From a virus: a stretch of 20,007 nt of DNA. Under the pieces are notes generated by a model. The model was not told the DNA's origin. It ran no database searches and worked only from the letters and a program-made list of their open reading frames with translations. The position numbers were made by a program, and so were the translations under genes. Below, in pieces: positions 1,252 through 18,884 of this stretch (positions are counted from its first letter, which is position 1; each line of letters begins with the position of its first letter). The DNA lies in IMG/VR virus record IMGVR_UViG_3300035070_000125, positions 1 through 20,007 of that record; one strand, written 5' to 3'.

Positions 1252-2700
1252 TTAAGCATCCTTAATTGCATACACTTGCTCAAAGCCTGTGCCAACATTA
1301 CTCCAAGTAGTTAGCGACCCTATTTGTATGGGACTGTTTTTAATTAGATAAACAGTGTTATCGCCTAATTGCCCCGACGCGCCGTAGCCCCAAGCCCATA
1401 AAGTACCGTCGGTTTTAACTGCAACCGAAACTTCTTTCGTTACCCTTGTTTGCGCCCAATTAGTTAAGGCCCCTATTTGCACCGGACTACTTACGTTAAC
1501 TGAGCTTCCGTTACCTAGTTTACCGTTGGAGCCTTGTCCAAGCCCCCAAAGGGTCCCGTTAGTTTTTATAAGCATAACGTGGTAGCCGTTTTGCCCATAG
1601 TCGGCCCAATTGGTATCAGAGCCTATCTGCACAGGAGAAGACCGTTTAATCGTGTCGTTTTGGCCTAAATTCCCTGTGCTGCCACTTCCCCAAGCCCAAA
1701 GCGTGCCATCTGTTTTAATAGCAGTACAGAATGGGTAACCTCCCGCAGCAGGGCCTCCCGCTTTATACCAATTGGTATCCGTCCCTACTTGTACGGGGGA
1801 AGAGCGGTGTACCGAGTAGCCAGTATTTTGACCTAAAGCACCGTGGCGACCGTCCCCCCAAGTCCACAAAGTGCCGTCGGTTTTAATTCCACAAACATTG
1901 ACTCCTGTGCCTGCCGCGACATAGGCCCAATCGGTATCTGCCCCTACTTGTACAGGAGAAGAGTAGCCTATTTGGTTGTTTTGCCCTAATTGCCCGTAGT
2001 TATTTTTTCCCCAAGCCCACAACGTACCATCGGTTTTAAGTGCAAAAGTACTGTACGTGCCTATAGCTACCAAACCGCCCCACGTAGTTAAAGCGCCTAC
2101 TTGTACAGGAGAAGAATAGGAAATACCCTCGTTATTTTGGCCCAACATCCCGTCATTAGCTCGACCCCACATCCAAAGCGAACCGTCAGTTTTAATGGAC
2201 GCTGCGGCGTTTGTGGACGCTGTACTAAACGGTCCCCAATCGGTAAGCGCGCCAATTTGTGTGGGTGAAGAAATGTTAATGTTGTTAGTGTTTTGCCCCA
2301 TCGCCCCGTTATTATCTCGACCCCATGAATAGGCTTCGGAGGGACTAGAAGGAACCACTGAATTACTCGCTGCACTTGCCGGACCTGTTCCCGTGCCGTT
2401 AGTAGCCGTTACGGTAAACGTATAAGACGTACCTCCGGTCAACCCGCTAACAACAATAGGCGAAGCAGAACCCGTAGCGGTAATAGAGCCGGGGCTTGAC
2501 GTAACAGTGTAGGACAAAGTGGCGGGATAGCCGGGGTTAGCAGGCGCGGTAAAAGCAACCGAAGCGTTTAAAGGTCCCCCAGTAGCCGTACCAATCGTAG
2601 GCGCACCGGGAACCTCGGGCCATGTACCTGCGCCCTTGGCTTGTGCTGCTTGCGTCACGGTCCACTGACCGGAGAATTGTTTCCAAATTTGGCTTGGCAT
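1252..2700 (-). CDS. Fibronectin-III-like domain plus seven-repeat RCC1-like propeller, probable virion adhesin
   Basis: This 482-residue protein begins with a short motif (MPSQIWKQFSGQW) of the type seen at the start of marine phage tail proteins. Residues about 30-116 look like a fibronectin type III domain (VPGAPTIGTA, then LTGGTSYTFTVTATNGTG). Residues 120-482 hold seven RCC1-like repeats of about 50 residues, each with LGQN, SSPVQVGALTDW and KTDGTLWAWG-like segments. The final copy ends at YAIKDA and lacks its WAWG strand, while the first copy starts with AYSWG, so the ends could close a seven-bladed propeller. There is no signal peptide or transmembrane segment. A GAGGG ribosome site precedes the ATG. 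Place among virion genes suggests an exposed tail or fibre protein binding a host surface; the RCC1 role in eukaryotic Ran exchange should not be transferred. Confidence 0.88.
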   Translation of the reverse strand: MPSQIWKQFSGQWTVTQAAQAKGAGTWPEVPGAPTIGTATGGPLNASVAFTAPANPGYPATLSYTVTSSPGSITATGSASPIVVSGLTGGTSYTFTVTATNGTGTGPASAASNSVVPSSPSEAYSWGRDNNGAMGQNTNNINISSPTQIGALTDWGPFSTASTNAAASIKTDGSLWMWGRANDGMLGQNNEGISYSSPVQVGALTTWGGLVAIGTYSTFALKTDGTLWAWGKNNYGQLGQNNQIGYSSPVQVGADTDWAYVAAGTGVNVCGIKTDGTLWTWGDGRHGALGQNTGYSVHRSSPVQVGTDTNWYKAGGPAAGGYPFCTAIKTDGTLWAWGSGSTGNLGQNDTIKRSSPVQIGSDTNWADYGQNGYHVMLIKTNGTLWGLGQGSNGKLGNGSSVNVSSPVQIGALTNWAQTRVTKEVSVAVKTDGTLWAWGYGASGQLGDNTVYLIKNSPIQIGSLTTWSNVGTGFEQVYAIKDA

Positions 2701-2705
2701 TACGA

Positions 2706-3863
2706 CTACCCTCTAATCCCGTAAGACGAATAACGACCCGGTGAAGCATCTATCCAATTTGTATCCGCTCCAATTTGAACCGGGGAAGAGTACCCTAAAT
2801 TAACGTCGTCTTGCCCAATTTGACCCCGAGAATTGTCCCCCCAAGCCCACAAAGTTCCGTCGGTTTTAATGGCAAGGAAAGCTCGGCAGTACCCACCTTC
2901 AACCTTGTCCCAATCGTTTAAAGCCCCTACTTGTACTGGCGAGGAATAATTTATTGCGTTATTTTGCCCTAACAAGCCCGCAATATTTTCTCCCCACGAA
3001 TAAAGTTGGCCTGACGCATTTACCGCTAAGCAAGTACCGTCTTTACCCACTGCAATATTTGTCCAATTAGTTAAAGCGCCTATTTGAACGGGAGAAGAAC
3101 GACTAATTAAATCGTTTTGCCCTAGTTGACCTAAGTTGTTTCTACCCCAAGCCCACAAAGTTCCGTTTGTTCGTAAACCCAGTGAAAAAACTTCCGCCTG
3201 TTGTGCGTCCAACCAAGTTTCCGCCCCCACTTGTACTGGGGAGGAGCGCCGTGCTGTAGCTCCGCTTATGTTAATGCCAAGCTCTCCGTAAACAGAGCCT
3301 CCAGAGGCGTATAAAGTCCCGTCAGTTTTAATATAAAAAGCCGCATTTTGACCCATCATAGCGGAAGCCCAGTCGGTATCCGAGCCTACTTGAATGGGAG
3401 AAGACACATTAACATTCGTTCCTTGTGCAAGTTTTCCGGCATTACCGGAACCCCACGTCCACAAAGTTCCATCAGGTTTTATAGCTCCAGCGCTTTGTTG
3501 GTTTACATCGAAAAACGCCCAATCGGTTAACGCGCCTACTTGAATGGGGGAAGAGGTGTTAGACGTTGCGCCCGCTGTGTTATTACCACTAAGTCCGGAC
3601 GATAAGTATCCCCACACAAAAATACTACCGGGGTTTTTACGCGCTCCGGCACAGTATTGACCGCCCGACACGTTTAGCCATGTTCCCCCTGAGCCGACTT
3701 GAGTAGGCGATGATCTATCTATGGTGTCGTTTAAACCTAGTACACCAATAGAAAAAACGCTACCGTTGTCCCCCCAAGCATATAAAGGCTGCGGTGCAAA
3801 TTCCCCCGGAGTCAACGGGTCAAAGTAGGCTTGGATAAATCCGCCTTCCCATCTATTAGACAT
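2706..3863 (-). CDS. Seven-repeat RCC1-like propeller, probable virion adhesin
   Basis: This 385-residue paralogue of the next gene downstream has a short N-terminal part (MSNRWEGGFIQAYFDP) that may dock it to the virion. From about residue 26 it holds seven RCC1-like repeats with the same SSPVQVG, TDW and DGTLWAWG signatures. The first strand LYAWG at the N-terminus and the incomplete last copy ending YSSYGIRG again fit propeller closure. Repeats 1 to 3 are the most diverged (for example KNPGSIFVWG and KTDGTLYASG), whereas the later ones are close to consensus. AAGGAG lies just before the ATG. It ends five bases before the second propeller gene starts, so the two are probably co-translated. 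A tail or receptor-binding role is inferred from context; the fold itself is well supported. Confidence 0.88.
   Translation of the reverse strand: MSNRWEGGFIQAYFDPLTPGEFAPQPLYAWGDNGSVFSIGVLGLNDTIDRSSPTQVGSGGTWLNVSGGQYCAGARKNPGSIFVWGYLSSGLSGNNTAGATSNTSSPIQVGALTDWAFFDVNQQSAGAIKPDGTLWTWGSGNAGKLAQGTNVNVSSPIQVGSDTDWASAMMGQNAAFYIKTDGTLYASGGSVYGELGINISGATARRSSPVQVGAETWLDAQQAEVFSLGLRTNGTLWAWGRNNLGQLGQNDLISRSSPVQIGALTNWTNIAVGKDGTCLAVNASGQLYSWGENIAGLLGQNNAINYSSPVQVGALNDWDKVEGGYCRAFLAIKTDGTLWAWGDNSRGQIGQDDVNLGYSSPVQIGADTNWIDASPGRYSSYGIRG
2839..3166. repeat. Direct DNA repeats inside the propeller genes
   Basis: A 22-base stretch is identical at 2839-2860 and 3145-3166, 306 bases apart, which is exactly 102 codons or two propeller repeats. 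It encodes the conserved LWAWG strand. Imperfect copies of the same stretch occur near 1388, 1688, 1857, 2009, 2161 and 3453, thus in both propeller genes. The spacing keeps the reading frame, so recombination between copies would remove or add whole blades. The repetition follows protein repeats and is not a separate mobile element. Confidence 0.8.
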
Positions 3864-6470: not shown

Positions 6471-7100
6471 TTAACGCGGGGTTATACGGAGTTGACCAGA
6501 GCGGTACATATCTTCCCGCATCTTGCCGTCCCCTAAGTTTTTGAGTAGCGCCATAGCGTCTACGTACATACTCTGGTAAAGCTGGATCATATCCGGCTCA
6601 CCTTTAATGAAGCGTATTGCCTCAACCAGAGCACCATTTAACAGCGCAGAATCAAACTCATTGCCAAGCCACGTAGTGCCCGCAGTAACAATAGACTCTG
6701 GGTAGTAGCCGTAATGAAGCTCCACCTCGTATGATGCGTCTGGTGTTGGGCCTATGATAAACGCTGTGTCATCAAAAAGACCGTAATGTCTCGGCGTCCC
6801 AGTGCTAGTAGGTCCGGGGTAAGCCTCGCGGATGAAGTTAACATCCTTATTCAGCAGGTACTCGTAGTTGCCCTGAGCGTCAATAACCGCCAAAGAGAAC
6901 GGATACAAGAAGTCTGTCGGGAACACCAAGTACTTATTTCCAGAAGTCAGGTTACCAGTCTGGTTACGACGCAAAGCCGGTATCTGAACAGTGTTATAAA
7001 TCTTCTGCTCAGCCTGATCTGTAAACATAGCAAGTTGGTCGTCCGTAAACGACTGCTCGCAGATGTCCTCAATATTTGTCTTCAGCTCGGTGTAATTCAC
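6471..7100 (-). CDS. Head-tail adaptor protein, SU10-adaptor-like
   Basis: The frame starts with GTG at 7100, supported by AAGGAG upstream, and encodes 209 residues. It is mostly helical at both ends, with TELKTNIEDICEQSFTDDQL (3-22) and NGALVEAIRFIKGEPDMIQL, around a beta-rich centre (YLVFPTDFLYPFSLAVIDAQG, split, and AFIIGPTPDASYEVELHYGY). This layout fits phage adaptor proteins of the SU10 type that bind beneath the portal in short-tailed phages. A second adaptor-type gene lies upstream at 7659-8363. The assignment rests on remembered family pattern and gene order; a connector or tail-completion role is the alternative reading. Confidence 0.78.
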   Translation of the reverse strand: MNYTELKTNIEDICEQSFTDDQLAMFTDQAEQKIYNTVQIPALRRNQTGNLTSGNKYLVFPTDFLYPFSLAVIDAQGNYEYLLNKDVNFIREAYPGPTSTGTPRHYGLFDDTAFIIGPTPDASYEVELHYGYYPESIVTAGTTWLGNEFDSALLNGALVEAIRFIKGEPDMIQLYQSMYVDAMALLKNLGDGKMREDMYRSGQLRITPR

Positions 7101-7658: not shown

Positions 7659-8363
7659 CTACCTCACGCCATATATACGCGGCACCAAGCTAAGTGTGGC
7701 TTTCTCTCTATCTTCACCCGCAGCTAACTCAAACTGACGCTCGTACTCGGCCTGTAGCATAGGAATACGTGGCATTAACTCAGGGTCTTTTTGCGCTATA
7801 TAATACGCAAGCCCTGCAACGAGGCAGGGCAAGAAACGGAAGTTAACGTCTGCTGTGTTTACCCCTGTACCGGCATCTTCAATACGACGCATACGCCAAT
7901 ACTTAAGGATGTAGTAAGGCGCTACAAGCGTGCCTTGATCTGGCACCGGCCATACTGTTGCTGTTGGGTTAGCCTGCCCACGGTCTATGTACATCTGGAT
8001 GGGGCGGCCTTGGTTTAGCTTGTTAGGGATGCTGGAGTACGTAGAGACGCTGATTCGAGTAATGTTTAGGTCAGACTGAGTGCTGATGTTGCCATTACCC
8101 GTACGCACTACGTGCTCTAATAAATCTATAGTATCTGCTGGCAGGTCATAAGTGGCTGTGCCTTGAGCGAGGTTTAACGTGCCCTCTTCAATAGTCCACA
8201 TGTTAATGCCACGGTTCTGCCACTCGATAGTCAACAGGTTCATGGAACGACGAGCAGTACGCAGGTCATAACCAGAACGCATTTCTCTACCGGCACGTTC
8301 CCACGCTTCTTCCGCAATCTCGGTGAAGTCCATGTTAAACGCTGTAGTGCCAGAAGTTGCCAT
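7659..8363 (-). CDS. Head-tail adaptor, P22 gp4-like type
   Basis: This 234-residue protein has a helical N-terminus (FTEIAEEAWERAGREMRSGY at 13-32) followed by RRSMNLLTIEWQNRGINMW. A beta-rich centre then carries TYDLPADTIDLLEHVVRTG and YIDRGQANPTATVWPVPDQG. A helical C-terminus (FLPCLVAGLAYYIAQKDPEL, MLQAEYERQFELAAGED) completes it. The LTIEWQNRGINMWTIEEG region followed by a DLP segment matches what I remember of gp4-like tail accessory or head-completion proteins of short-tailed phages. It is in the right place, downstream of portal and capsid genes. Its ATG overlaps the preceding TAA (TAATG). Two adaptor-type genes near each other support a podovirus-like neck. Confidence 0.8.
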   Translation of the reverse strand: MATSGTTAFNMDFTEIAEEAWERAGREMRSGYDLRTARRSMNLLTIEWQNRGINMWTIEEGTLNLAQGTATYDLPADTIDLLEHVVRTGNGNISTQSDLNITRISVSTYSSIPNKLNQGRPIQMYIDRGQANPTATVWPVPDQGTLVAPYYILKYWRMRRIEDAGTGVNTADVNFRFLPCLVAGLAYYIAQKDPELMPRIPMLQAEYERQFELAAGEDREKATLSLVPRIYGVR

Positions 8364-10348: not shown

Positions 10349-10861
10349 TCACTTAATTCGGGTCTCGTAAATGTTCTTTACCCACCACATGAACATATCT
10401 TCGCCAAGGGTGTGTTTCATGGTATTTACCCTAGCAGCAACTAGCTGTACGTTTTCCCGTACGTAGGGGCCTTGGGGATTTATGCGGTCTATCGAAGCGT
10501 TAAAGTCTTTCTGCTTCCTATCGCCGTAAGTGCCGTCTCTTTGGTGGGTCATGAGCATACCAGATAGGGCACACTTACCGTCTTGCATTTCCCACAGGTC
10601 AATAAGGTCTTCTGTGGTCAGTTCGTAATCAACACCCTGCTTAACGCGTTGAGATTTTAACTGCGTATTTAATACTCGGAGGTACGACTCAGGGGTAGCA
10701 GAGGTCTTTCTTGCCCTTTGTAGGGTAACGCACTGCTGACACACACCACGAACAAAACCTTCTTTGAAGTGCTCGAATTGTGATACCAGCTTAGTTTTGT
10801 TGCACGAAGTGCAGATTCGAGAGCCTTGTGACTCTTGCTTTACTTTAGGTTCTCTAGGCAT
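10349..10861 (-). CDS. Free-standing HNH endonuclease with N-terminal zinc ribbon
   Basis: This 170-residue protein has a zinc-ribbon-like start with Cys17, Cys20, Cys41 and Cys44. The nuclease part covers about 86-165: GKCALSGMLMTH (95-106), NASIDRINPQGPYVRENVQL (121-140), then ARVNTMKHTLGEDMF. The SIDRINP.GPY..ENVQLV arrangement is typical of small phage HNH nucleases of homing type; the first His of the classic triad is not obvious, as in related forms with DR at that place. It would cut double-stranded DNA at a specific site. AAAGGTAG precedes the ATG. It lies between two terminators right after the major capsid gene, which suggests an inserted selfish gene or moron with its own expression control. 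Confidence 0.9.
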   Translation of the reverse strand: MPREPKVKQESQGSRICTSCNKTKLVSQFEHFKEGFVRGVCQQCVTLQRARKTSATPESYLRVLNTQLKSQRVKQGVDYELTTEDLIDLWEMQDGKCALSGMLMTHQRDGTYGDRKQKDFNASIDRINPQGPYVRENVQLVAARVNTMKHTLGEDMFMWWVKNIYETRIK

Positions 10862-10923: not shown

Positions 10924-11832
10924 TTAAGCGCCCGGTGAACCGAAGATACCCAGTGGGTCAGATACGCCGAAGCTGTATCGCTCACGAGCCTTATATCGGC
11001 TGTTGCCTGTGTCAAAGTCTGCGTCCATGCTAGTTTGCATAGGTGAGCGGACAAAGTGCTTCAGGCCGTTAGGTACGTCAGTCATCAAGAACCACGCATT
11101 GGTGTCAGTCAGGTAGTTATTTACTGTATAACCACCGGGGATTGAACCGTTGTTGCGGATTGCGTTGATGTCGTTATCGGCTGTAGACACACGAAGCTCA
11201 GTATCCAACAGGCGAGTAGCAACGAATTGCAGCGCAGGTGGGATTACAAGCTTAGAGGGCTTAGCAGCGATAAGGAGACCACGCTCATCAGTCCAACCAG
11301 CGATCTGGATAACGGCAGCTTCGAGTGAAGTTTCGTTAAGATCGGCTGCAACAGCAGGACGGTTTGAGTTAGTTCCACCAGAAACTAGTGGGTGGTCAGT
11401 CGCACACAAAGTCTTGCCATCACCGTATGTAGAGCCAGCAGCAAAAGCGTTGTTGAGGATTGAAGCACCCTTAACTTGCTTAGTGTAAGCCATACCACGG
11501 GCCAGAGCCTTCGTGTAACGTGAAGAGAGTGAATCGTAGAGGTTATCTTCGATTGCTTCCTCAGTTAGCGAGAAGCCCATAGCGATTGTCTCGTGAGTGT
11601 AACGAGCAGTCCACGCTTCTTGCGCGTTGTCATACTCGATTGCAGAACCTTCACCCTTAACAGGCGCGGCACTGAAACCGGACAACTTAGTTTCTTCTTC
11701 GAAAGAACGGTCAGAAGACTCAGTCTCGAAGATTTCGGCAGCCTCATCACCATACTTAGCGTATTCGAGACCAAAGAGGGCGTTTAGACCCGGTAGTAGC
11801 TCCTTAAGGAGTTGCGCTCTTGAAATAGCCAT
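10924..11832 (-). CDS. Major capsid protein, Mu gpT-like HK97 fold
   Basis: This 302-residue protein carries the layout of gpT-like major capsid proteins. It has an N-terminal arm (RAQLLKELLPGLNALFGLEY at 5-24) and a strand block around YTHETIAMGFSLTEEAIED (78-96). A conserved loop, CATDHPLVSGGTNSNR (143-158), precedes DLNETSLEAAVIQI. A later stretch reads KLVIPPALQFVATRLLDTEL. CATDHPL with a following Ser/Asn-rich segment is the feature I trust most. It lies after scaffold and decoration-type genes and is followed by a strong terminator, as expected for a highly expressed gene. AAGGAG precedes the ATG. Processing of the N-terminus cannot be judged; no protease gene is seen nearby. Confidence 0.87.
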   Translation of the reverse strand: MAISRAQLLKELLPGLNALFGLEYAKYGDEAAEIFETESSDRSFEEETKLSGFSAAPVKGEGSAIEYDNAQEAWTARYTHETIAMGFSLTEEAIEDNLYDSLSSRYTKALARGMAYTKQVKGASILNNAFAAGSTYGDGKTLCATDHPLVSGGTNSNRPAVAADLNETSLEAAVIQIAGWTDERGLLIAAKPSKLVIPPALQFVATRLLDTELRVSTADNDINAIRNNGSIPGGYTVNNYLTDTNAWFLMTDVPNGLKHFVRSPMQTSMDADFDTGNSRYKARERYSFGVSDPLGIFGSPGA

Positions 11833-11844
11833 TTGCTAGTCTCC

Positions 11845-12429
11845 TTATACGCCAGTAGTTGAATTGTACTGGTGAGTATTGAGCTTAACAATCAACTCAA
11901 CAAAAGCATCAGCACCAGTTGCGGTATCTGTGACAACATCAATTACTCGCACAGGAACAGTTGCTGTAACAACATCTGAGCCAGCGAGGACTGATTGTCC
12001 AGAATCTCCAGTAGCAGTATCGCCTGCACCTTGTACTACGGCCATATTAGAGCCGACAACAGTACGGTCTTCTGCGGTTACTGCACCACCACTTGTTACA
12101 GCAACTTTGAAAGCCGCCATAGGGTCGTCTACTACGATAGCAAACGCGTTAGTAACGCTAGTGCCGGGGTAGTATTGAGCCGGTGTGAACTGGCCCAGAG
12201 AATTGACGTACTGGACGCCAACACAAACACCCACCGTAAGACCACTAGTGGTACCGGTGAACTTTTCACATGTGCCCGCCGCTACAGTTTGAACCATGTC
12301 ACCCGCGAAGATAGCCACGTTGTATGTACCCGCAATAGGAATAAGGCGAGTAGCACCAGCGTAAGGCATACCGTCGATACGGTTGATTGGCTTAAAGCCG
12401 TAGGGAGCGCTGACTGTTGGATAAGCCAT
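11845..12429 (-). CDS. Capsid or decoration-type protein
   Basis: This 194-residue, beta-rich protein begins MAYPTVSAPYGFKPINRIDG and continues MPYAGATRLIPIAGTYNVAI, FAGDMVQTVAAGTCE, then VGVCVGVQYVNSLGQFTPAQ, and near the end AFVELIVKLNTHQYNSTTGV. I remember this family (YGFKP..R.DG.PYAGATR.IPI and HQY..TTG) as common capsid-associated proteins of marine phages. It directly precedes the major capsid gene, ending 12 bases before its start. It probably stabilises or decorates the shell; some annotations call relatives a capsid protein outright. AGGAG precedes the ATG. No membrane segment is visible. Confidence 0.82.
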   Translation of the reverse strand: MAYPTVSAPYGFKPINRIDGMPYAGATRLIPIAGTYNVAIFAGDMVQTVAAGTCEKFTGTTSGLTVGVCVGVQYVNSLGQFTPAQYYPGTSVTNAFAIVVDDPMAAFKVAVTSGGAVTAEDRTVVGSNMAVVQGAGDTATGDSGQSVLAGSDVVTATVPVRVIDVVTDTATGADAFVELIVKLNTHQYNSTTGV

Positions 12430-12448: not shown

Positions 12449-12898
12449 TTAATTTCCGCTGCCGAAAGTAACCTTCGTTTTCCTATCGTGAAATAGGGGC
12501 ATACGAGGATCATTTTCGCGCATCAGGTTATTGTCCACAGAGTGAATTTGCGATTCAGCTTGGTGCTGGTAGTAATCGTTTCGCTCTTGGACAAGTTCTA
12601 CTGGGGCCTTACATAGCATCAAACCGCCAACGATGACATTGTCCTTAAACCGTGTATCTGCCACAGCGTCAGTAAATATCTCGGGGTGATCTTCTGCACG
12701 TACAGGTTCCCAGCCTTCACGTATTTTCGAGGAAATATTAGTGGCGTCAGATTGACCATTAGTCGAAATACGAACCCAGTGGTAAGTGTATCCGTCTTCG
12801 GGAGTGGGGTCAGGCAACACAGTGGGTCGCGTCCACGCCGTTTTACGGACTGTCTTTGCACGGGCTTCAAGGTCTCTATCTAGTCTATTTGTAGCCAT
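12449..12898 (-). CDS. Conserved head-region protein of unknown role
   Basis: This 149-residue hydrophilic protein starts MATNRLDRDLEARAKTVRKT and has AWTRPTVLPDPTPEDGYTYH (about 21-40), WVRISTNGQSDATN and REGWEPVRAEDHPEIF (about 60-75). A stretch with LCKAPVELVQERNDYYQHQA follows (about 94-113). The pattern WT.P..LP.P.PEDG with REGWEPVRAEDHP recurs between scaffold and capsid genes in marine phages in my memory. The ATG overlaps the scaffold stop (TAATG), and AGGAAAGG in the scaffold's last codons acts as ribosome site. It may be a head-assembly or scaffold-associated factor, but its activity is unknown. Confidence 0.78.
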   Translation of the reverse strand: MATNRLDRDLEARAKTVRKTAWTRPTVLPDPTPEDGYTYHWVRISTNGQSDATNISSKIREGWEPVRAEDHPEIFTDAVADTRFKDNVIVGGLMLCKAPVELVQERNDYYQHQAESQIHSVDNNLMRENDPRMPLFHDRKTKVTFGSGN

Positions 12899-13962
12899 TA
12901 TCCTTTCCTCATTAGTTCAGCAGCCTGTTTGGCGTAAGTTTCCAGTGGTACTCCAAGTTTTTTCGCAATAGCTATTTGTGATTGCGTTAGCCTAATTTTC
13001 TTAAGCCCTGTGCTCCGCGAGGCGGGGGCAACCACGTTGCTAGATTTTCTCTGAGTACTAGCTGGTTCATCTTCAATCCCATCATCAAACTGATCGGGAA
13101 ATACTTGTCGCATACGAGAATTAACTTTCTCGTAGTAAGTATCTGATTGGGGGTCTACCCCGTCTTTCGTTAACTTGTTATGTAGCCCTAATGCAAAGGC
13201 AGTCATTTCGTCATCTGAGCCGAACCACGGGTTATCATCGCGCCATGCTTCAGCTTTAACGTCCCGCTGCACTTGAGGTCGGGGTACATCTACCTGCGGT
13301 TGTACAGGAGTAGTAGTTGTTTGTAAAGAAGTTTCTGTAGTTTGCGCGCTGCTCTTAGTTACGTCCCTAGCACGCATTCCTTTAGCCCTAGTGGCTATGG
13401 CTTGCGCATTGTTCATAACTTGTTGAGCTTCTACAACAGCGTCAGCGTCTCCAGATTCGTACGCTTCCTTATATTGACGTTTAGCGGCTTCTAACTCTAC
13501 TTCTGCTTTCTGCTTAGCCGCCGCTATCATAGCGTTATAGCTACGATCCCCAGTGGTTTTAAGCTTTTCGTTCTCCGCTATAAGATTTTTGGCGTATGCC
13601 TCTAAAGCTTCTCGCTCACGTTGGGCCTCTTCTTTAGCCCTACGCTCGTCGTGGTAGCCCTTACTAAAATGCTTAATACGGTTCTTAACTTTCTCGGAGT
13701 AGTTTTCTAGCTCCTCGTTAGTAACCTCTTCTGGCGGTGGAGACGCCTTTCGCCCACGATCTTCCAGTGGAGTATCGTCTTCTACCTCAATCTCTACTTC
13801 ACCCGCCTTTATAGTATCTTTGGCGGACTTCATGTCTTCCCGACCGACAGCACCTTCTACTTCAAGGGGCGCGTCTTCTTCAGCAATATCTACTTCAACT
13901 TCTTGGGTATTAGCTTCCTTATCGGGATCGGGAAATTCAAATTCTACTTGTTGTCTAGGCAT
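12898..13962 (-). CDS. Scaffolding protein
   Basis: This 354-residue protein has an acidic N-terminus (EVEVDIAEEDAPLEVEG at 21-37; EVEIEVEDDTPLED at 55-68). Long helices with coiled-coil character follow at about 84-137 (RRAKEEAQREREALEAYAKN) and 140-197. A Gln/Thr-rich linker leads to a basic C-terminal helix pair (LKKIRLTQSQIAIAKKLGVP near 330), ending LMRKG. Acidic start, coiled coil and a short basic C-terminal capsid-binding end are typical of podovirus scaffolds. The LTQSQIAIAKKLG...YAKQ motif recurs in marine phage scaffolds as I recall. It precedes the capsid genes. AAGGAA lies before the ATG. It would guide procapsid assembly and then leave the shell. Confidence 0.87.
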   Translation of the reverse strand: MPRQQVEFEFPDPDKEANTQEVEVDIAEEDAPLEVEGAVGREDMKSAKDTIKAGEVEIEVEDDTPLEDRGRKASPPPEEVTNEELENYSEKVKNRIKHFSKGYHDERRAKEEAQREREALEAYAKNLIAENEKLKTTGDRSYNAMIAAAKQKAEVELEAAKRQYKEAYESGDADAVVEAQQVMNNAQAIATRAKGMRARDVTKSSAQTTETSLQTTTTPVQPQVDVPRPQVQRDVKAEAWRDDNPWFGSDDEMTAFALGLHNKLTKDGVDPQSDTYYEKVNSRMRQVFPDQFDDGIEDEPASTQRKSSNVVAPASRSTGLKKIRLTQSQIAIAKKLGVPLETYAKQAAELMRKG

Positions 13963-13972
13963 GGTCTATTCC

Positions 13973-14431
13973 TTATGCGCGCGAGACTGCTCGCGGATCA
14001 TCGACGACGGCCTCAATAGAGTCGTCATTCATTAAACGATATTCCTGCTTTCCAACTTTAAAGCGCGTACCAGTATTGGCACGGAACATCACGTAGTCAC
14101 CCACTTCGCACCAAGGCCCAGTAGGGAACCGTTCTTTGTCGCTATAGGCTTCTGCACCCATATCAAGTACACACCCGATAGTAGACAGGATGTACTCTTC
14201 CCGCCGCGTCTGGTCTGCCTTAATAAGACCACTATCCCCAAAGGTCTCCTCCACGTTAGGAAGGGCAATAAGCACCCTGTACCCCACCGGTTTCGGAATC
14301 GAGGCTTCTAGTTCCTCTTGGGTTTTGATCTCTTCAGCTATCTTCTTTTGCCTTTTCTCTTCGAGCGCAGTCATTGCTGGGGAAACAGAAGCTTCCGCTC
14401 CCACCCCGCTAACCGTTATAGTTTCAGTCAT
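13973..14431 (-). CDS. GroES-like phage co-chaperonin
   Basis: I start this at ATG 14431 (MTETITVSG), which overlaps the stop region of the upstream gene and follows GGACGAC; a start 11 codons earlier also exists. The 152 residues have a helical, charged N-terminal extension (TALEEKRQKKIAEEIKTQEE at 21-40) and then a GroES-like domain at about 46-145. That domain shows KPVGYRVLIALPNVEE (47-62), a mobile-loop-like stretch with SGLI (67-70), STIGCVLDMG (83-92) and CEVGDYVMFRANTGTRFKVG (108-127). GroES caps the host GroEL chamber; phage versions such as T4 gp31 help fold capsid proteins. Its place just before the scaffold and capsid genes fits that role. Sequence insertions make it longer than the bacterial protein. 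Confidence 0.85.
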   Translation of the reverse strand: MTETITVSGVGAEASVSPAMTALEEKRQKKIAEEIKTQEELEASIPKPVGYRVLIALPNVEETFGDSGLIKADQTRREEYILSTIGCVLDMGAEAYSDKERFPTGPWCEVGDYVMFRANTGTRFKVGKQEYRLMNDDSIEAVVDDPRAVSRA

Positions 14432-14621
14432 CGTTGTCGTCCATATAGTTACGCGAAAGGTCACCTACTTCTCTTAATGCGGCGTTTAGACCCCGAATCA
14501 CACCACATACCTCCCGATATTCAGCAAAGTCTTTAGCTCCGCCGCTTTTCAGGAAATCTTCGCTGGAGGCTTGAAGCTCCGTTAATTTTTCATTTAGCAC
14601 GTCAAAGACGGTTTTAGCCAT
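14424..14621 (-). CDS. Small helical protein, unknown
   Basis: This 65-residue protein is predicted to be mostly helical: TVFDVLNEKLTELQASSEDF (4-23), EYREVCGVIRGLNAALREVG, then an acidic tail NYMDDNDD. It has no membrane span and one Cys. The ATG overlaps the upstream TAA (TAATG), and its stop region overlaps the co-chaperonin start, so translation is probably coupled on both sides. Position between portal and chaperonin suggests a head assembly role, but I do not recognise the family. Confidence 0.75.
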   Translation of the reverse strand: MAKTVFDVLNEKLTELQASSEDFLKSGGAKDFAEYREVCGVIRGLNAALREVGDLSRNYMDDNDD

Positions 14622-14773
14622 TATCTTCCCTGCCCTCTATATTCTTTGAAACTGCGACGTTTGTGTTTGTTCATTGAGCCTACCTTCAAAGCCCCGTTGC
14701 CAATGCTGGTGCCTTTAACACCTTTGTTTAGCTGTAGGGCTTCTCCTGAAGTAATGCCTGACTTTTTAGCCAC
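14621..14773 (-). CDS. Small basic 50-residue protein with GTG start
   Basis: The frame starts with GTG at 14773, inside the last codons of the portal gene, and ends with a TAA that overlaps the next ATG. It encodes 50 residues: (M)AKKSGITSGEALQLNKG, VKGTSIGNGALKVGSMNKHK, RRSFKEYRGQGR. The portal's final codons supply AGAGGA as a well placed ribosome site. It is strongly basic and fills the space between two real genes exactly, with overlaps of eight and three bases. No family is recognised; a packaging- or head-associated small protein is a guess from context. Confidence 0.72.
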   Translation of the reverse strand: MAKKSGITSGEALQLNKGVKGTSIGNGALKVGSMNKHKRRSFKEYRGQGR

Positions 14774-17225
14774 CTTGCGGTCCTCTTGGTTGTTGAGCTT
14801 TAGCTAAGTCCATTATCGCCTTCGCTTCGTCCAGATCGTTCTTGGCTTGGGCCTGTTCATTTTGTGCGGCTATACGGCTAGACTCAATGGCAGCGGTAGT
14901 TTGGGCTTTCTGCGTATCCAACTGTAGTCTTGCGGCGTCAATAGCTGCATCTGCTTGATCTTTCTGGGCTTTACGCTGTATCTCTTGCTGCTTAAGCTTA
15001 AGTTCTTCTTGCTGCATCTGAATAAGCGGGTCTTGCATCTTCTGCTGTGCAGCAGCTTGTGCGGCTTGGGCCTGTTTCTGTTGAGTAAGCTGTGTGCCCG
15101 CATCAGAGATAAGTCGCGCAAGAAGTACTTCGTCTTTCTCATCGAGTTCTTGGTTAGGTGCAGGTAACGGCACACCAAGTTTTTGTTCCATCTGACTTCT
15201 ATAGTCAAAGGCAATATGCTCAGCAATATGCGCGTTTAATGCGGCCATAACTTGTTGCGCTGCTGGGTTCTGCCCAACAAATGCTGCTATTTGGGGGTCT
15301 TGCATAAACGCTTGGTGCGTAGCAATATGTGCCGCATGGTCTTGATATATAAACGCTTTTACCGGTTTCCCGACTAGGACATTCATATTCTCGCTAACCG
15401 GATCGGAAGGCTTGATGTCATCCTTGGTAGGTACGAGCTTGTCGGCGTTCTTGATACCCAAGACCTCGATCATCTGGCGATGAAGCTGCGGTAGGTCATA
15501 GATTTGTGGGGTGGCCTGTGCCATTTGCAACACGGTTTGGTACTGGACCACTCGTTGGGCCATCGTGCTGCTATTGGGGTCGCTGACAGGAATTACTTCC
15601 ACCATAGCGTAGTCGGCTTGTCTAGCACGAGGCTCGCCACGGTCAGGCACATACATATACTCCGTAGGCGCATACTCAGCGATGATTTTTCTCAGGAGTT
15701 TAAACTCCTGCTTCATCGAGAAATGGACGCGGGATTGCACCGCAGCCATTGGCTTTAGAGTACGCTCTAGTAGAGCGAGGGTAGTTCCAACAGGAGCATT
15801 AGCACTCATGTCGGATATGTTCATGTCAGAGATTGCGCCCAAACGTCGGCCTTCTTCTGTGATCTGCTGCAATAACGCAAGAAGGGTTTGGCTGGGTTCT
15901 TTATAAGGCAGCGGCATAATGTTGTCGCGGATGCTGCCAGAGGGTACGTCTACATCGCGAAATTCGCCGGGACCAATCGGTGTGTCGTCGCCCTTAACTC
16001 GTAGTCCGCGAGACTTGAGACCACCGGGGAGATTGGATAGGGTTCCAGCGTCCACGAGTTGACGGATAATACTAGTGCCAGCTTTAGCATAACCACCAAT
16101 AATATGAATGAGGCCGAGTCCATAAAATCCAAATCCGGGTACGTAAGCATAGTGTACGAAATGTTGACGCTTAAGCATCAGTGGGTCGTCAATATTCCAG
16201 TTACGTCGTATAGCTAGAATCTTGCCTGTACCCTTCTCAAGCGTTACCACATAAGGCTTTGCAATCTGTAGGTCATCGTCGTCATCTTCAGCATCTACAC
16301 CGTCAATAATCAGGTCAGCGTGGACCTCAAGTATGGTGTAACGATCATCTGAAGTAAGTGATATGCCAGATTGCTCTGCTTTCGCCTCTTCCACATCTGT
16401 AAAGAAAGATACTGGGTCTCCCAATTCGACTTCGCGGTAGAATCCAGCAGCCTGAAGTTTTATAACTTCGTTCTTAGTCTTGCGCATGACGTGCGTAACA
16501 CGCTCTGCGGACTCAATATTAGAGGCACCGTAGGGTACAATTACGTCTTCAGCAGGGATATATAGGGCCGTCTGACGCCCCATATTGGGGTCAAAATACA
16601 CCTTTTTGAAGGCAGAACCAGCCAAACCAAGGCTATATAGTAGCCTCTCATGTTCGGGGCGGTATTCTACCATAACCTCAGTTAATTCATAGTTCATATC
16701 CGTCTTAACACGCAGCGCTGCATCTTCCTTCTCTTGAGTCATTTCCCCAAGAATCTTTGTCTTAACAGGACCGGCAGCAGGGAACGTCTCACTCATGGCC
16801 TCAGCTTGGAACCGAATAGCCGCTTCGGCTAGGATGTTGCTGTAAACACCACAGGCATTTTCCCAAGGCTCAGTGCGCGCTTCGTACTTCATACCTAAAA
16901 CATCAAGACCGGCAACGTAGCTGTCTGCCCAGTCACGTCGAGCTGAAGTATCTGCGTCAATGGCTTCTTCTAAGTCCCCAGATATTTCTTGTAGCTGGCT
17001 GTCTTCTAGGTACTCAGCGAGGTTGGCATCAAAGGGCGCCATATCTACGTCTTCGTTTTCTTCTCCGAAGCTGATCTCAACACTGCCGTCTTCAAGCTCT
17101 ACCATGACAGGCATGTCTTCATCGGTGGCGATAGCCATCTCGATCATGGCGTCGGGTTCACCCATTGCGTTTATTTCGTTTTCTATGCCTTCGGGCATTC
17201 CGTACAAACCTTTTTCAATAGCCAT
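14766..17225 (-). CDS. Portal protein, P22-like long form
   Basis: This 819-residue protein has an acidic leader (about 1-90) and a portal core. Motifs include EPWENACGVYSNILAEAAIR (about 119-138), YRPEHERLLYSLGLAGSAFK, HYAYVPGFGFYGLGLIHIIG and APVGTTLALLERTLKPMAAV, followed by a helical block. APVGTTLALLERT, seen in the clip-stem helix region of many portals, is the strongest cue. From about residue 692 to the end it is a long Gln/Ala-rich coiled coil (QQKMQDPLIQMQQEELKLKQ), like the barrel of P22-type portals. The portal is the dodecameric ring through which DNA enters and leaves the capsid. AAAGGAC lies before the ATG, 13 bases after the terminase stop. The length is at the long end for portals. 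Confidence 0.93.
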   Translation of the reverse strand: MAIEKGLYGMPEGIENEINAMGEPDAMIEMAIATDEDMPVMVELEDGSVEISFGEENEDVDMAPFDANLAEYLEDSQLQEISGDLEEAIDADTSARRDWADSYVAGLDVLGMKYEARTEPWENACGVYSNILAEAAIRFQAEAMSETFPAAGPVKTKILGEMTQEKEDAALRVKTDMNYELTEVMVEYRPEHERLLYSLGLAGSAFKKVYFDPNMGRQTALYIPAEDVIVPYGASNIESAERVTHVMRKTKNEVIKLQAAGFYREVELGDPVSFFTDVEEAKAEQSGISLTSDDRYTILEVHADLIIDGVDAEDDDDDLQIAKPYVVTLEKGTGKILAIRRNWNIDDPLMLKRQHFVHYAYVPGFGFYGLGLIHIIGGYAKAGTSIIRQLVDAGTLSNLPGGLKSRGLRVKGDDTPIGPGEFRDVDVPSGSIRDNIMPLPYKEPSQTLLALLQQITEEGRRLGAISDMNISDMSANAPVGTTLALLERTLKPMAAVQSRVHFSMKQEFKLLRKIIAEYAPTEYMYVPDRGEPRARQADYAMVEVIPVSDPNSSTMAQRVVQYQTVLQMAQATPQIYDLPQLHRQMIEVLGIKNADKLVPTKDDIKPSDPVSENMNVLVGKPVKAFIYQDHAAHIATHQAFMQDPQIAAFVGQNPAAQQVMAALNAHIAEHIAFDYRSQMEQKLGVPLPAPNQELDEKDEVLLARLISDAGTQLTQQKQAQAAQAAAQQKMQDPLIQMQQEELKLKQQEIQRKAQKDQADAAIDAARLQLDTQKAQTTAAIESSRIAAQNEQAQAKNDLDEAKAIMDLAKAQQPRGPQGG

Positions 17226-17237
17226 GTTAGCTGTCCT

Positions 17238-18884
17238 TTAGTAAAATCCGCCGCGATGCCTATAGAGAGGCTCGCTTTCCGCTTCGTCCGTTGGTAGGGA
17301 AATAAATCCGCCTTGACGAAAACGCATCAATGCCATTATGGTAGTATCCACCAAGTCATCGTTAGACATAAACGGAAAACCTGCTACTTCTTCTACTAGC
17401 TCTTCCGCCCAACGTGTTTGGGGAACCCACACAAGTCCAGATCGTACTATATCAGCAACAGAGTTTAAACGCGCAGTTTTATCTCCTGATCCTCTGTGCG
17501 GTGTATATTCCTGCACCATCAGCCCAGACCTACGCATCTCCTGATACAGTGGTGTACCACTACTCTTCTTCTCCACAATAAACGCATCCGGCTCCCACTC
17601 GTTGTACTGCTCCCAAGCCAACTCTTTTAGCTCTGGAAATTCAAGCCGCTTCTTTATAGAGTTAAGCAGGATGATACAGTAACAGTTCTCCTCCTCATGG
17701 AAGAAAACGCCCCACGTAGTGAGTGCCGTGTAGTCAGCCCTATTGTTCTTTTCGGCCGCCGCGTCAAGCGTCATGATTATATATTCACAGCTGGGCGGGT
17801 CTTCGTGGGGCCATTCCTTCCACCACTCGCGCTTAACCATTGCGGCTTCTTCTGCCGTAGGCTTCTGCTGATACTGGGCATTCCACTGGAACACCGGCAT
17901 TGACGCTTTAGTTCTGTACAGGGCATCAAGATCAAAGAACTCAGGCCACAGCGGTTTCTCGATAGTCTTGTGTATGGTTAGCAACCGGTTCTTAGGGTCA
18001 GGTACTTCCGACTCTACTTCTAAAATCGCTGGAAATTCAACAACTTCGTACTTATCTGCCAGCTCATTCTGCGCCATATCCCGAACCACGCGCCCAGTCA
18101 GGTCATCCAAGTGCCAACTGGTCTGTACAATAGCGATCCGCCCGCCGGGCATGAGACGAGTACGGGCACCGAACGTAAACCATTCGTACGCTTTGTCGAA
18201 AACATCCAAGTTACCGCTAATAATGTCTTGTTCGTTATGCGGATCGTCTACCAAAAGCAAGTGGGCGCCACGACCGGCAAGTGCTGAACCCACACCACAA
18301 GCAAAATACTCCCCACCCGCACTGGTGTTCCATCGTCCTGCGCTTTTTGAGTCCGACGCTAGCTGTACTGTAGGGAATATGGCCTGATACTCGGGGGTAG
18401 ATATGAGGTTTCGCACTTTTCGACCAAAATCTACAGCAAGATCAGTAGTATGCGAGACCATCAGCACCTTTTTATCTGGGTTACGCCCCAAAAACCACGC
18501 CGGAAAGTAAATAGAGATAAGTTGGCTCTTGCCATGACGCGGGGGCATGTTCACACAAATACGATCTTGGCCTGTTCCCTCTACATCCTCACCGTCTGGG
18601 CCGTATTCTTTACCCCGCTCGATGTCCATAAGCATGTCAGCTAGGATTCGGTGGTGTTTTCCTACCTTATAGTCAGTCTGCATAGCCTTACAGAATTCAA
18701 TTAAGTCCTTATATGCCGCTTCGGAGCGCTGCCTAGCCTCTAACTCCTCTACAATCTTTAATATCTCGGCCTGTTCATCGGGAGTGTAGTTATCTAGGTT
18801 TTTTAAGAGCAGGTCTGCGTCCGCAGCAGTAAACTGTGTAGGTTTTGGTATAACCTTTAATATAGTTCTACTACTTCGACCCAC
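17238..18884 (-). CDS. terL: Terminase large subunit
   Basis: The 548-residue protein starts with GTG at 18884, overlapping the Cys-rich gene by 14 bases. The ATPase part shows a Walker A-like MPPRHGKS (113-120), a Walker B HLLLVDDP (208-215) and a coupling-type QTSWH (254-258). The nuclease part shows a first acidic strand, IIMTLDAAAEKNNRADYTAL (369-388, Asp374), a second with FIVEKKSSGTPLYQEM (435-450, Glu438), and a third near DDLVDTTIMALMRFR (509-523, Asp513). This is the usual order of TerL proteins with an RNase H-like C-terminus. It drives ATP-dependent DNA packaging and cuts the concatemer. Headful or cohesive-end cutting cannot be decided from this. All key motif residues appear present. 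Confidence 0.96.
   Translation of the reverse strand: MGRSSRTILKVIPKPTQFTAADADLLLKNLDNYTPDEQAEILKIVEELEARQRSEAAYKDLIEFCKAMQTDYKVGKHHRILADMLMDIERGKEYGPDGEDVEGTGQDRICVNMPPRHGKSQLISIYFPAWFLGRNPDKKVLMVSHTTDLAVDFGRKVRNLISTPEYQAIFPTVQLASDSKSAGRWNTSAGGEYFACGVGSALAGRGAHLLLVDDPHNEQDIISGNLDVFDKAYEWFTFGARTRLMPGGRIAIVQTSWHLDDLTGRVVRDMAQNELADKYEVVEFPAILEVESEVPDPKNRLLTIHKTIEKPLWPEFFDLDALYRTKASMPVFQWNAQYQQKPTAEEAAMVKREWWKEWPHEDPPSCEYIIMTLDAAAEKNNRADYTALTTWGVFFHEEENCYCIILLNSIKKRLEFPELKELAWEQYNEWEPDAFIVEKKSSGTPLYQEMRRSGLMVQEYTPHRGSGDKTARLNSVADIVRSGLVWVPQTRWAEELVEEVAGFPFMSNDDLVDTTIMALMRFRQGGFISLPTDEAESEPLYRHRGGFY

Follow-up and report, generated by a model that had tools for sequence, protein, structure and literature searches.

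Why does a phage encode a co-chaperonin of the GroES kind among its head genes, which protein would it serve, and how would it engage GroEL? These questions are raised by a marine phage whose virus record of 20,007 bases, analysed here in its entirety, is referred to as the window. The genes concerned lie on the minus strand in the order terminase large subunit, portal, a 65-aa ORF, the GroES-like gene, three genes for proteins of 354, 149 and 194 aa, and the major capsid protein gene. The features are listed below with the evidence for each.

17238..18884, minus strand: terminase large subunit (PF17289, phrog_38)
14766..17225, minus strand: portal protein (phrog_1216)
14424..14621, minus strand: 65-aa ORF overlapping the GroES start; a small ORF is directly before GroES in most annotated relatives
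13973..14431, minus strand: GroES/Cpn10-like co-chaperonin, 152 aa (Pfam PF00166, phrog_3188, AF2 model, PDB matches to GroES and gp31)
14303..14368, minus strand: predicted N-terminal helix, residues 22-43, inside an extension of about 45 residues (AF2 model)
14219..14227, minus strand: codons for L69-I70-K71, the tripeptide that aligns with I25-V26-L27 of E. coli GroES (alignments)
12898..13962, minus strand: charged protein of 354 aa in scaffold position (phrog_28737, function unknown); same position in 13 annotated loci
12449..12898, minus strand: 149-aa protein of the conserved block (phrog_36003, function unknown)
11845..12429, minus strand: 194-aa protein of the conserved block, immediately before the capsid gene; conserved position, no family match
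10924..11832, minus strand: 302-aa major capsid protein with HK97 fold, the proposed client (phrog_371, Phage_capsid_4, AF2)

The 65-aa ORF may be translationally coupled with the GroES gene. A preliminary description of this DNA had placed the co-chaperonin next to a scaffold gene and a capsid gene. The capsid gene was correctly recognised, as its product matched the major head protein family phrog_371 and its AF2 model (pLDDT 88.6) had the HK97 fold with HK97 matches. The neighbouring gene has the position and the charge of a scaffold, but its product (12898-13962) matched only a PHROG of unknown function and is therefore a putative scaffold here. Elsewhere on the minus strand of the window, two consecutive genes at 1252-3863 contained RCC1-type beta-propeller repeats (Pfam RCC1, 156 and 132 bits), one of them with a fibronectin type III domain, in what is presumed to be the tail or fibre region. 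This one phage also encodes two distinct SU10 adaptor family members (PF24175, 77 and 46 bits), at 6471-7100 and 7659-8363. Directly downstream of the capsid gene, a 170-aa ORF at 10349-10861 displayed zinc-finger-like cysteine pairs and by eye resembled an HNH-type endonuclease; Pfam and NCBIfam searches with it gave no match.

The GroES-like ORF starts with the ATG at 14431 and encodes 152 aa, and an alternative GTG at 14464 would give 163 aa. The dN/dS values between the window gene and seven relatives were 0.09-0.25, and about 0.1 in most pairs (eight pairs were tried, the eighth giving no value), which rules out a chance ORF; the gene is real and under purifying selection. Pfam Cpn10 (PF00166) matched residues 47-143 with 33.7 bits against a cut-off of 21.1, spanning profile positions 3-93 of 93, and PHROG 3188, 'co-chaperonin GroES', matched with E 7e-12. 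Among the members of the homologue set A5, 96 of 101 matched PF00166 at E 0.01. The cut-offs of the NCBIfam GroES models were not reached by the window protein (best 28.7 versus 96 bits). An AlphaFold2 model made with 101 sequences (pLDDT 90.5) displayed a helix at residues 22-43 followed by the GroES strands, and all 31 Foldseek matches in the PDB at E <=0.001 were Cpn10, GroES or gp31, with Cpn10/GroES proteins in the best ranks and gp31 of phage T4 at rank 28. In VIA comparisons the model aligned with 8wuc_a at Z 9.6 (rmsd 3.3, 92 residues), and only distantly with the gp31 structures 1g31 (Z 7.5, rmsd 4.3, 86 residues) and 2cgt (Z 8.0, rmsd 2.1, 71 residues), at 15-18% identity. By profile and predicted fold, the window protein is thus a member of the Cpn10 family. 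This agrees with the identity given in the preliminary description, which had also proposed structure prediction as a check. A likeness to pentatricopeptide repeats was rejected, as a phmmer search of PDB sequences gave only designed PPR proteins with less than 7 bits for each repeat, amounting to summed noise on the N-terminal helix.

The same description had called co-chaperonins uncommon in phages with genomes of modest size, which does not hold for the lineage of the window. GroES is annotated in its relatives and is reported within the 13-gene core genome of the HTVC023P-type pelagiphages (PMC9599517, in extract), so it is not rare there. A tblastn search with the window GroES matched 14 deposited phage records, most of them already annotated with co-chaperonin GroES or chaperonin 10, and 217 related stretches were found in IMG/VR, of which 80 were kept. 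The 13 annotated related records span 40 to 65 kb, and GroES was located directly before the scaffold-position gene in all 13 annotated loci. The GroES genes of HTVC023P, HTVC027P, 023Pt_psg01, DSL-LC04 and CRP-901/902 agree with the window gene in position and in capsid family. For the first four the identity to the window protein is 33-38%. The N-terminal extension is present in all of these as in the window and is shorter in CRP-901/902, for which GroES is named both in the records themselves and in a figure legend of the paper (PMC10149686, in extract). The closest deposited phage relative is the GroES of Planktothrix phage Pag-Yong1 (47% identity), with the same match in MinM2 and Pra-JY27. 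Pag-Yong1 shares with the window the gene order and a basic third residue in the tripeptide (IIR), and differs from it by keeping KTAGG before the tripeptide and by a shorter N-terminal extension. Three cyanophage records, OL906435, OQ594354 and PP438419 (L082, H1-H3), agree in length (65,014) and in their protein matches despite different claimed hosts, which suggests that a single phage was isolated, or given a name, on three occasions.

A search of 20 related phage records, of which five had been deposited as complete genomes, found Cpn60 in none (0/20), which makes host GroEL the obvious partner. Judged from this gene content, these phages would have to use the host chaperonin, if they use any.

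GroES in these phages is bound to one family of HK97-fold capsid proteins, and the linkage is genetic. Of 50,697 phage records, only 22 contained relatives of the window capsid protein, and 20 of the 22 carry GroES (19 by annotation or tblastn; in MW202601 it was found by searching the whole record and by annotation), the examination for GroES covering all but MW202604, which has the same length as MW202601. Approached from GroES, 51 of 51 testable IMG/VR loci (of 80) had the capsid gene 2.09-2.19 kb downstream; approached from the capsid, the first IMG/VR scan gave GroES in 69 of 69 testable loci (of 80). With three further capsid scans added, one of them led by a distant capsid, GroES was found in 271 of 274 testable loci, equal to 248 of 251 distinct capsid DNAs, and the distance between the two genes was 1.7-2.6 kb in 245 of 248. 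For the capsid-first loci with sufficient upstream sequence the count was 225 of 228, nearly always about 2.1 kb upstream. Less than 2.8 kb of upstream sequence led to 91 of the 365 capsid loci being set aside, and 19 of these 91 showed GroES.

Three testable loci lacked GroES in the fetched stretch: L096 (MW202601), L180 and BK070158. MW202601 and the record of L180 encode Cpn10 elsewhere. A record search of the Helicobacter prophage BK070158, whose capsid is distant (58% coverage, 29% identity), found no Cpn10. Five further loci were considered as GroES losses and rejected. In the MAG contigs L403 and L405 the upstream sequence consists of bacterial genes that have no relation to the phage and are fused to a truncated phage block, in L405 with a run of N, so these are untestable for a loss, and L399, L408 and L415 offered too little upstream sequence.

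The linkage follows the capsid rather than the terminase. Cpn10 was found nowhere in the records of eight phages whose terminases are related but whose capsids are of other kinds (0/8), a control hand-picked from 60 listed of 2209 records for absence from the capsid-relative matches. In published trees CRP-901/902 lie beside HTVC023P by capsid but not by terminase (PMC10149686, in extract), a discord which indicates that GroES stayed with the capsid. The presence of GroES in HTVC023P-type relatives was known before; the linkage in quantified form, as well as the lysine loop of phage GroES described below, was not found in the open-licence literature searched.

We consider it probable that the phage co-chaperonin caps host GroEL and helps to fold the phage's own HK97-fold capsid protein, by way of an altered interface. 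The window GroES would form a ring, presumably a heptamer as in GroES, which would cap host GroEL and displace the host GroES, and the client would be the major capsid protein encoded four genes downstream in the conserved block. A capsid client had been suggested earlier from gene position; the linkage supports the suggestion far beyond a single position, with the client itself still the likely rather than the observed part. BK070158, with its distant capsid and no Cpn10, is a point against this explanation.

Another reading is that the protein supplements or replaces host GroES in general, raising or redirecting the overall GroEL capacity of the infected cell and serving no dedicated client. 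It would agree with the ability of T4 gp31 and RB49 CocO to replace GroES for all essential folding in E. coli (PMC3012670, in extract) and with the location of the Cpn10 gene outside the capsid block in outgroup phages, but the tight linkage to one capsid family and the lack of Cpn10 in the phages with related terminases make it unlikely. A further point against capsid folding as the function is that synteny spans the whole block, so the dedicated client could be another of its products, that is, the scaffold-like 354-aa protein, the 149-aa or 194-aa protein, or the portal, whose genes share the synteny of the capsid gene to the same degree. We regard such a client as quite unlikely, given that in T4 the known client of GroEL/gp31 is gp23, a capsid protein with the HK97 fold (PMC3012670, in extract), and that carriers have kept the capsid sequence highly similar, with 70% identity between Pag-Yong1 and the window versus 47% for GroES.

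The standard case of a co-chaperonin that a phage devotes to its capsid has so far been T4 gp31 with gp23. There, gp31 and GroEL fold gp23, and a larger cage has been invoked (PMC3012670, in extract). Like the window protein, gp31 and RB49 CocO are phage co-chaperonins with the GroES fold, and the loop of gp31 reads SGLII. The window differs from T4 in its GroES-capsid block, no capsid gene being present within the 7 kb fetched at T4 gene 31. T4 gp23 is also larger than the window's 302-aa capsid protein, for which, unlike gp23, there is no obvious need for a larger cage. This counts against the capsid-folding explanation, and it also means that the 'bigger cage' argument need not apply. A phage with a small capsid protein might need its own GroES for supply at the time of infection, to fit a host interface that has changed, or for special handling of the client. 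In the abundant and mostly marine phage group described here, the pairing of GroES with one HK97-fold capsid family is near-obligate across several hundred loci.

The mobile loop of the window protein departs from that of GroES. The segment SGLI had been named as a candidate for the GroEL-binding tripeptide. Its L and I do belong to the aligned tripeptide, but this reads LIK and ends in a lysine: the loop is D-S-G-L-I-K, with L and I at positions 25 and 26 and K at position 27 of the E. coli numbering. The hydrophobic signature that marks a GroEL contact is present in part. E. coli GroES binds GroEL through I25-V26-L27, L27A and I25A lower the affinity more than 1000-fold, L27A abolishes function, both L27A and L27D abolish GroEL binding, and organisms from bacteria to human are reported to have chiefly Ile and Leu, occasionally Met, at positions 25 and 27 (PMC5575113, in extract); L27 is described as highly conserved (PMC3514286, in extract). 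With such a cost of L27A, a lysine at this position might mean lost or different binding.

Among 262 distinct GroES proteins of the window capsid family, the L27 position was K in 137, R in 4 and L/I/V/M/F/Y in 121, the set having been gathered partly around the window so that the K/R share is not a frequency in nature. Positions 25 and 26 were hydrophobic in nearly all. Cellular GroES had a hydrophobic residue at the L27 position in 40 of 40, a control that leans to canonical proteins because its loci are nearly all the best-scoring ones; two of its rows, L439 and L420, have the loops SGIII and GGIII. The HTVC023P-type relatives have tripeptides with a hydrophobic third residue (ILF, LIL, IVL, VIL and ILL) as opposed to LIK in the window. 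In the lysine class (141 distinct proteins) the lysine codons were 70 AAA and 67 AAG, both being used, which means that the residue and not the codon is kept; judged from these sequences, the lysine at the L27 position is kept by selection. Trees gave three changes for the K state both for GroES with the loop masked, where one clade of 31 rows contained 22 K and 9 of the hydrophobic class, and for the capsid (60 representatives). In these trees the K proteins do not strictly form a single clade, a result compatible with one origin of the lysine as well as with several.

The loop of the lysine class has the conserved motif S/T-x-[LI]-[LIV]-K and often lacks one of the two glycines. Intermediates in which KT-GG is kept and the third residue alone is changed were found in L218 (EEKTEGGIIKAEET), L387 (EEKTAGGIFKSDAT) and Pag-Yong1 (EEKTAGGIIRPDET), and canonical members inside the same clade were L244 (GGIFV) and L400 (GGIFL), a pattern that fits a stepwise rebuilding of the interface. 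Conceivably, the lysine-class ring has kept the fold but not GroES-style GroEL binding, its loop binding another partner such as the scaffold, the portal or a capsid assembly intermediate. The loss of the L27-type residue and often of a glycine, the conservation of a new motif and the abolished GroEL binding of L27A and L27D in E. coli GroES (PMC5575113, in extract) would agree with this. We nevertheless judge it decidedly improbable, since positions 25 and 26 are still hydrophobic in nearly all members, the L218 and L387 intermediates look like gradual tuning of the same interface, and relatives with canonical loops share the gene order and the capsid family.

For a rebuilt GroEL contact, as in the preferred explanation, two hydrophobic contacts would be kept in the window lineage and the third replaced by lysine, whose long aliphatic arm together with a polar contact probably substitutes for Leu27 and would tune the affinity or specificity for host GroEL. 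The broader proposition, that in a large and mostly marine phage clade a near-invariant lysine has taken the place of the Leu27-type contact, rewiring the chaperonin interface to a charged GroEL contact or to another partner while the protein stays locked to one capsid family, is put forward tentatively and with some doubt. A lysine where alanine abolishes binding of E. coli GroES is a natural test of what the GroEL interface requires, and the lysine-loop reading, if true, would mean that a co-chaperonin can work in nature with an incomplete hydrophobic tripeptide.

Other parts of the protein differ from E. coli GroES, which has the same fold and family but is 97 aa long, has the tripeptide IVL and has no N-terminal extension. 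The extension of about 45 residues noticed earlier in the window protein was confirmed, with its predicted helix at residues 22-43; among relatives its length (10th-90th percentile) was 19-47 residues in the lysine class and 8-56 in the others. The loops had also been described as longer than in GroES, which is true after the tripeptide, where every one of the 141 lysine-class proteins has a spacing of 14 before the next conserved Gly, four more than the 10 of E. coli, and where the AF2 model has a helix at 73-81. It is not true of the roof, a segment kept in the window GroES as against T4 gp31; its length is nearly that of the E. coli roof (19 versus 18 residues, the E. coli length counted by hand from sequence).

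The bins carrying relatives were mixed. AG-910-K03, which from its name we take to be a single-cell genome, the only such among these bins, carries a hydrophobic-class GroES. Besides one normal GroES, the genome G078 (Maricaulis sp. MAG IN14, behind L401) gave ten more matches to Cpn10, all on other contigs, which would fit the co-binning of many such phages. The methanogen virus vir526 (BK063670, L095), which encodes a distant member of the window capsid family, has groS at 1027-1383, upstream of the terminase.
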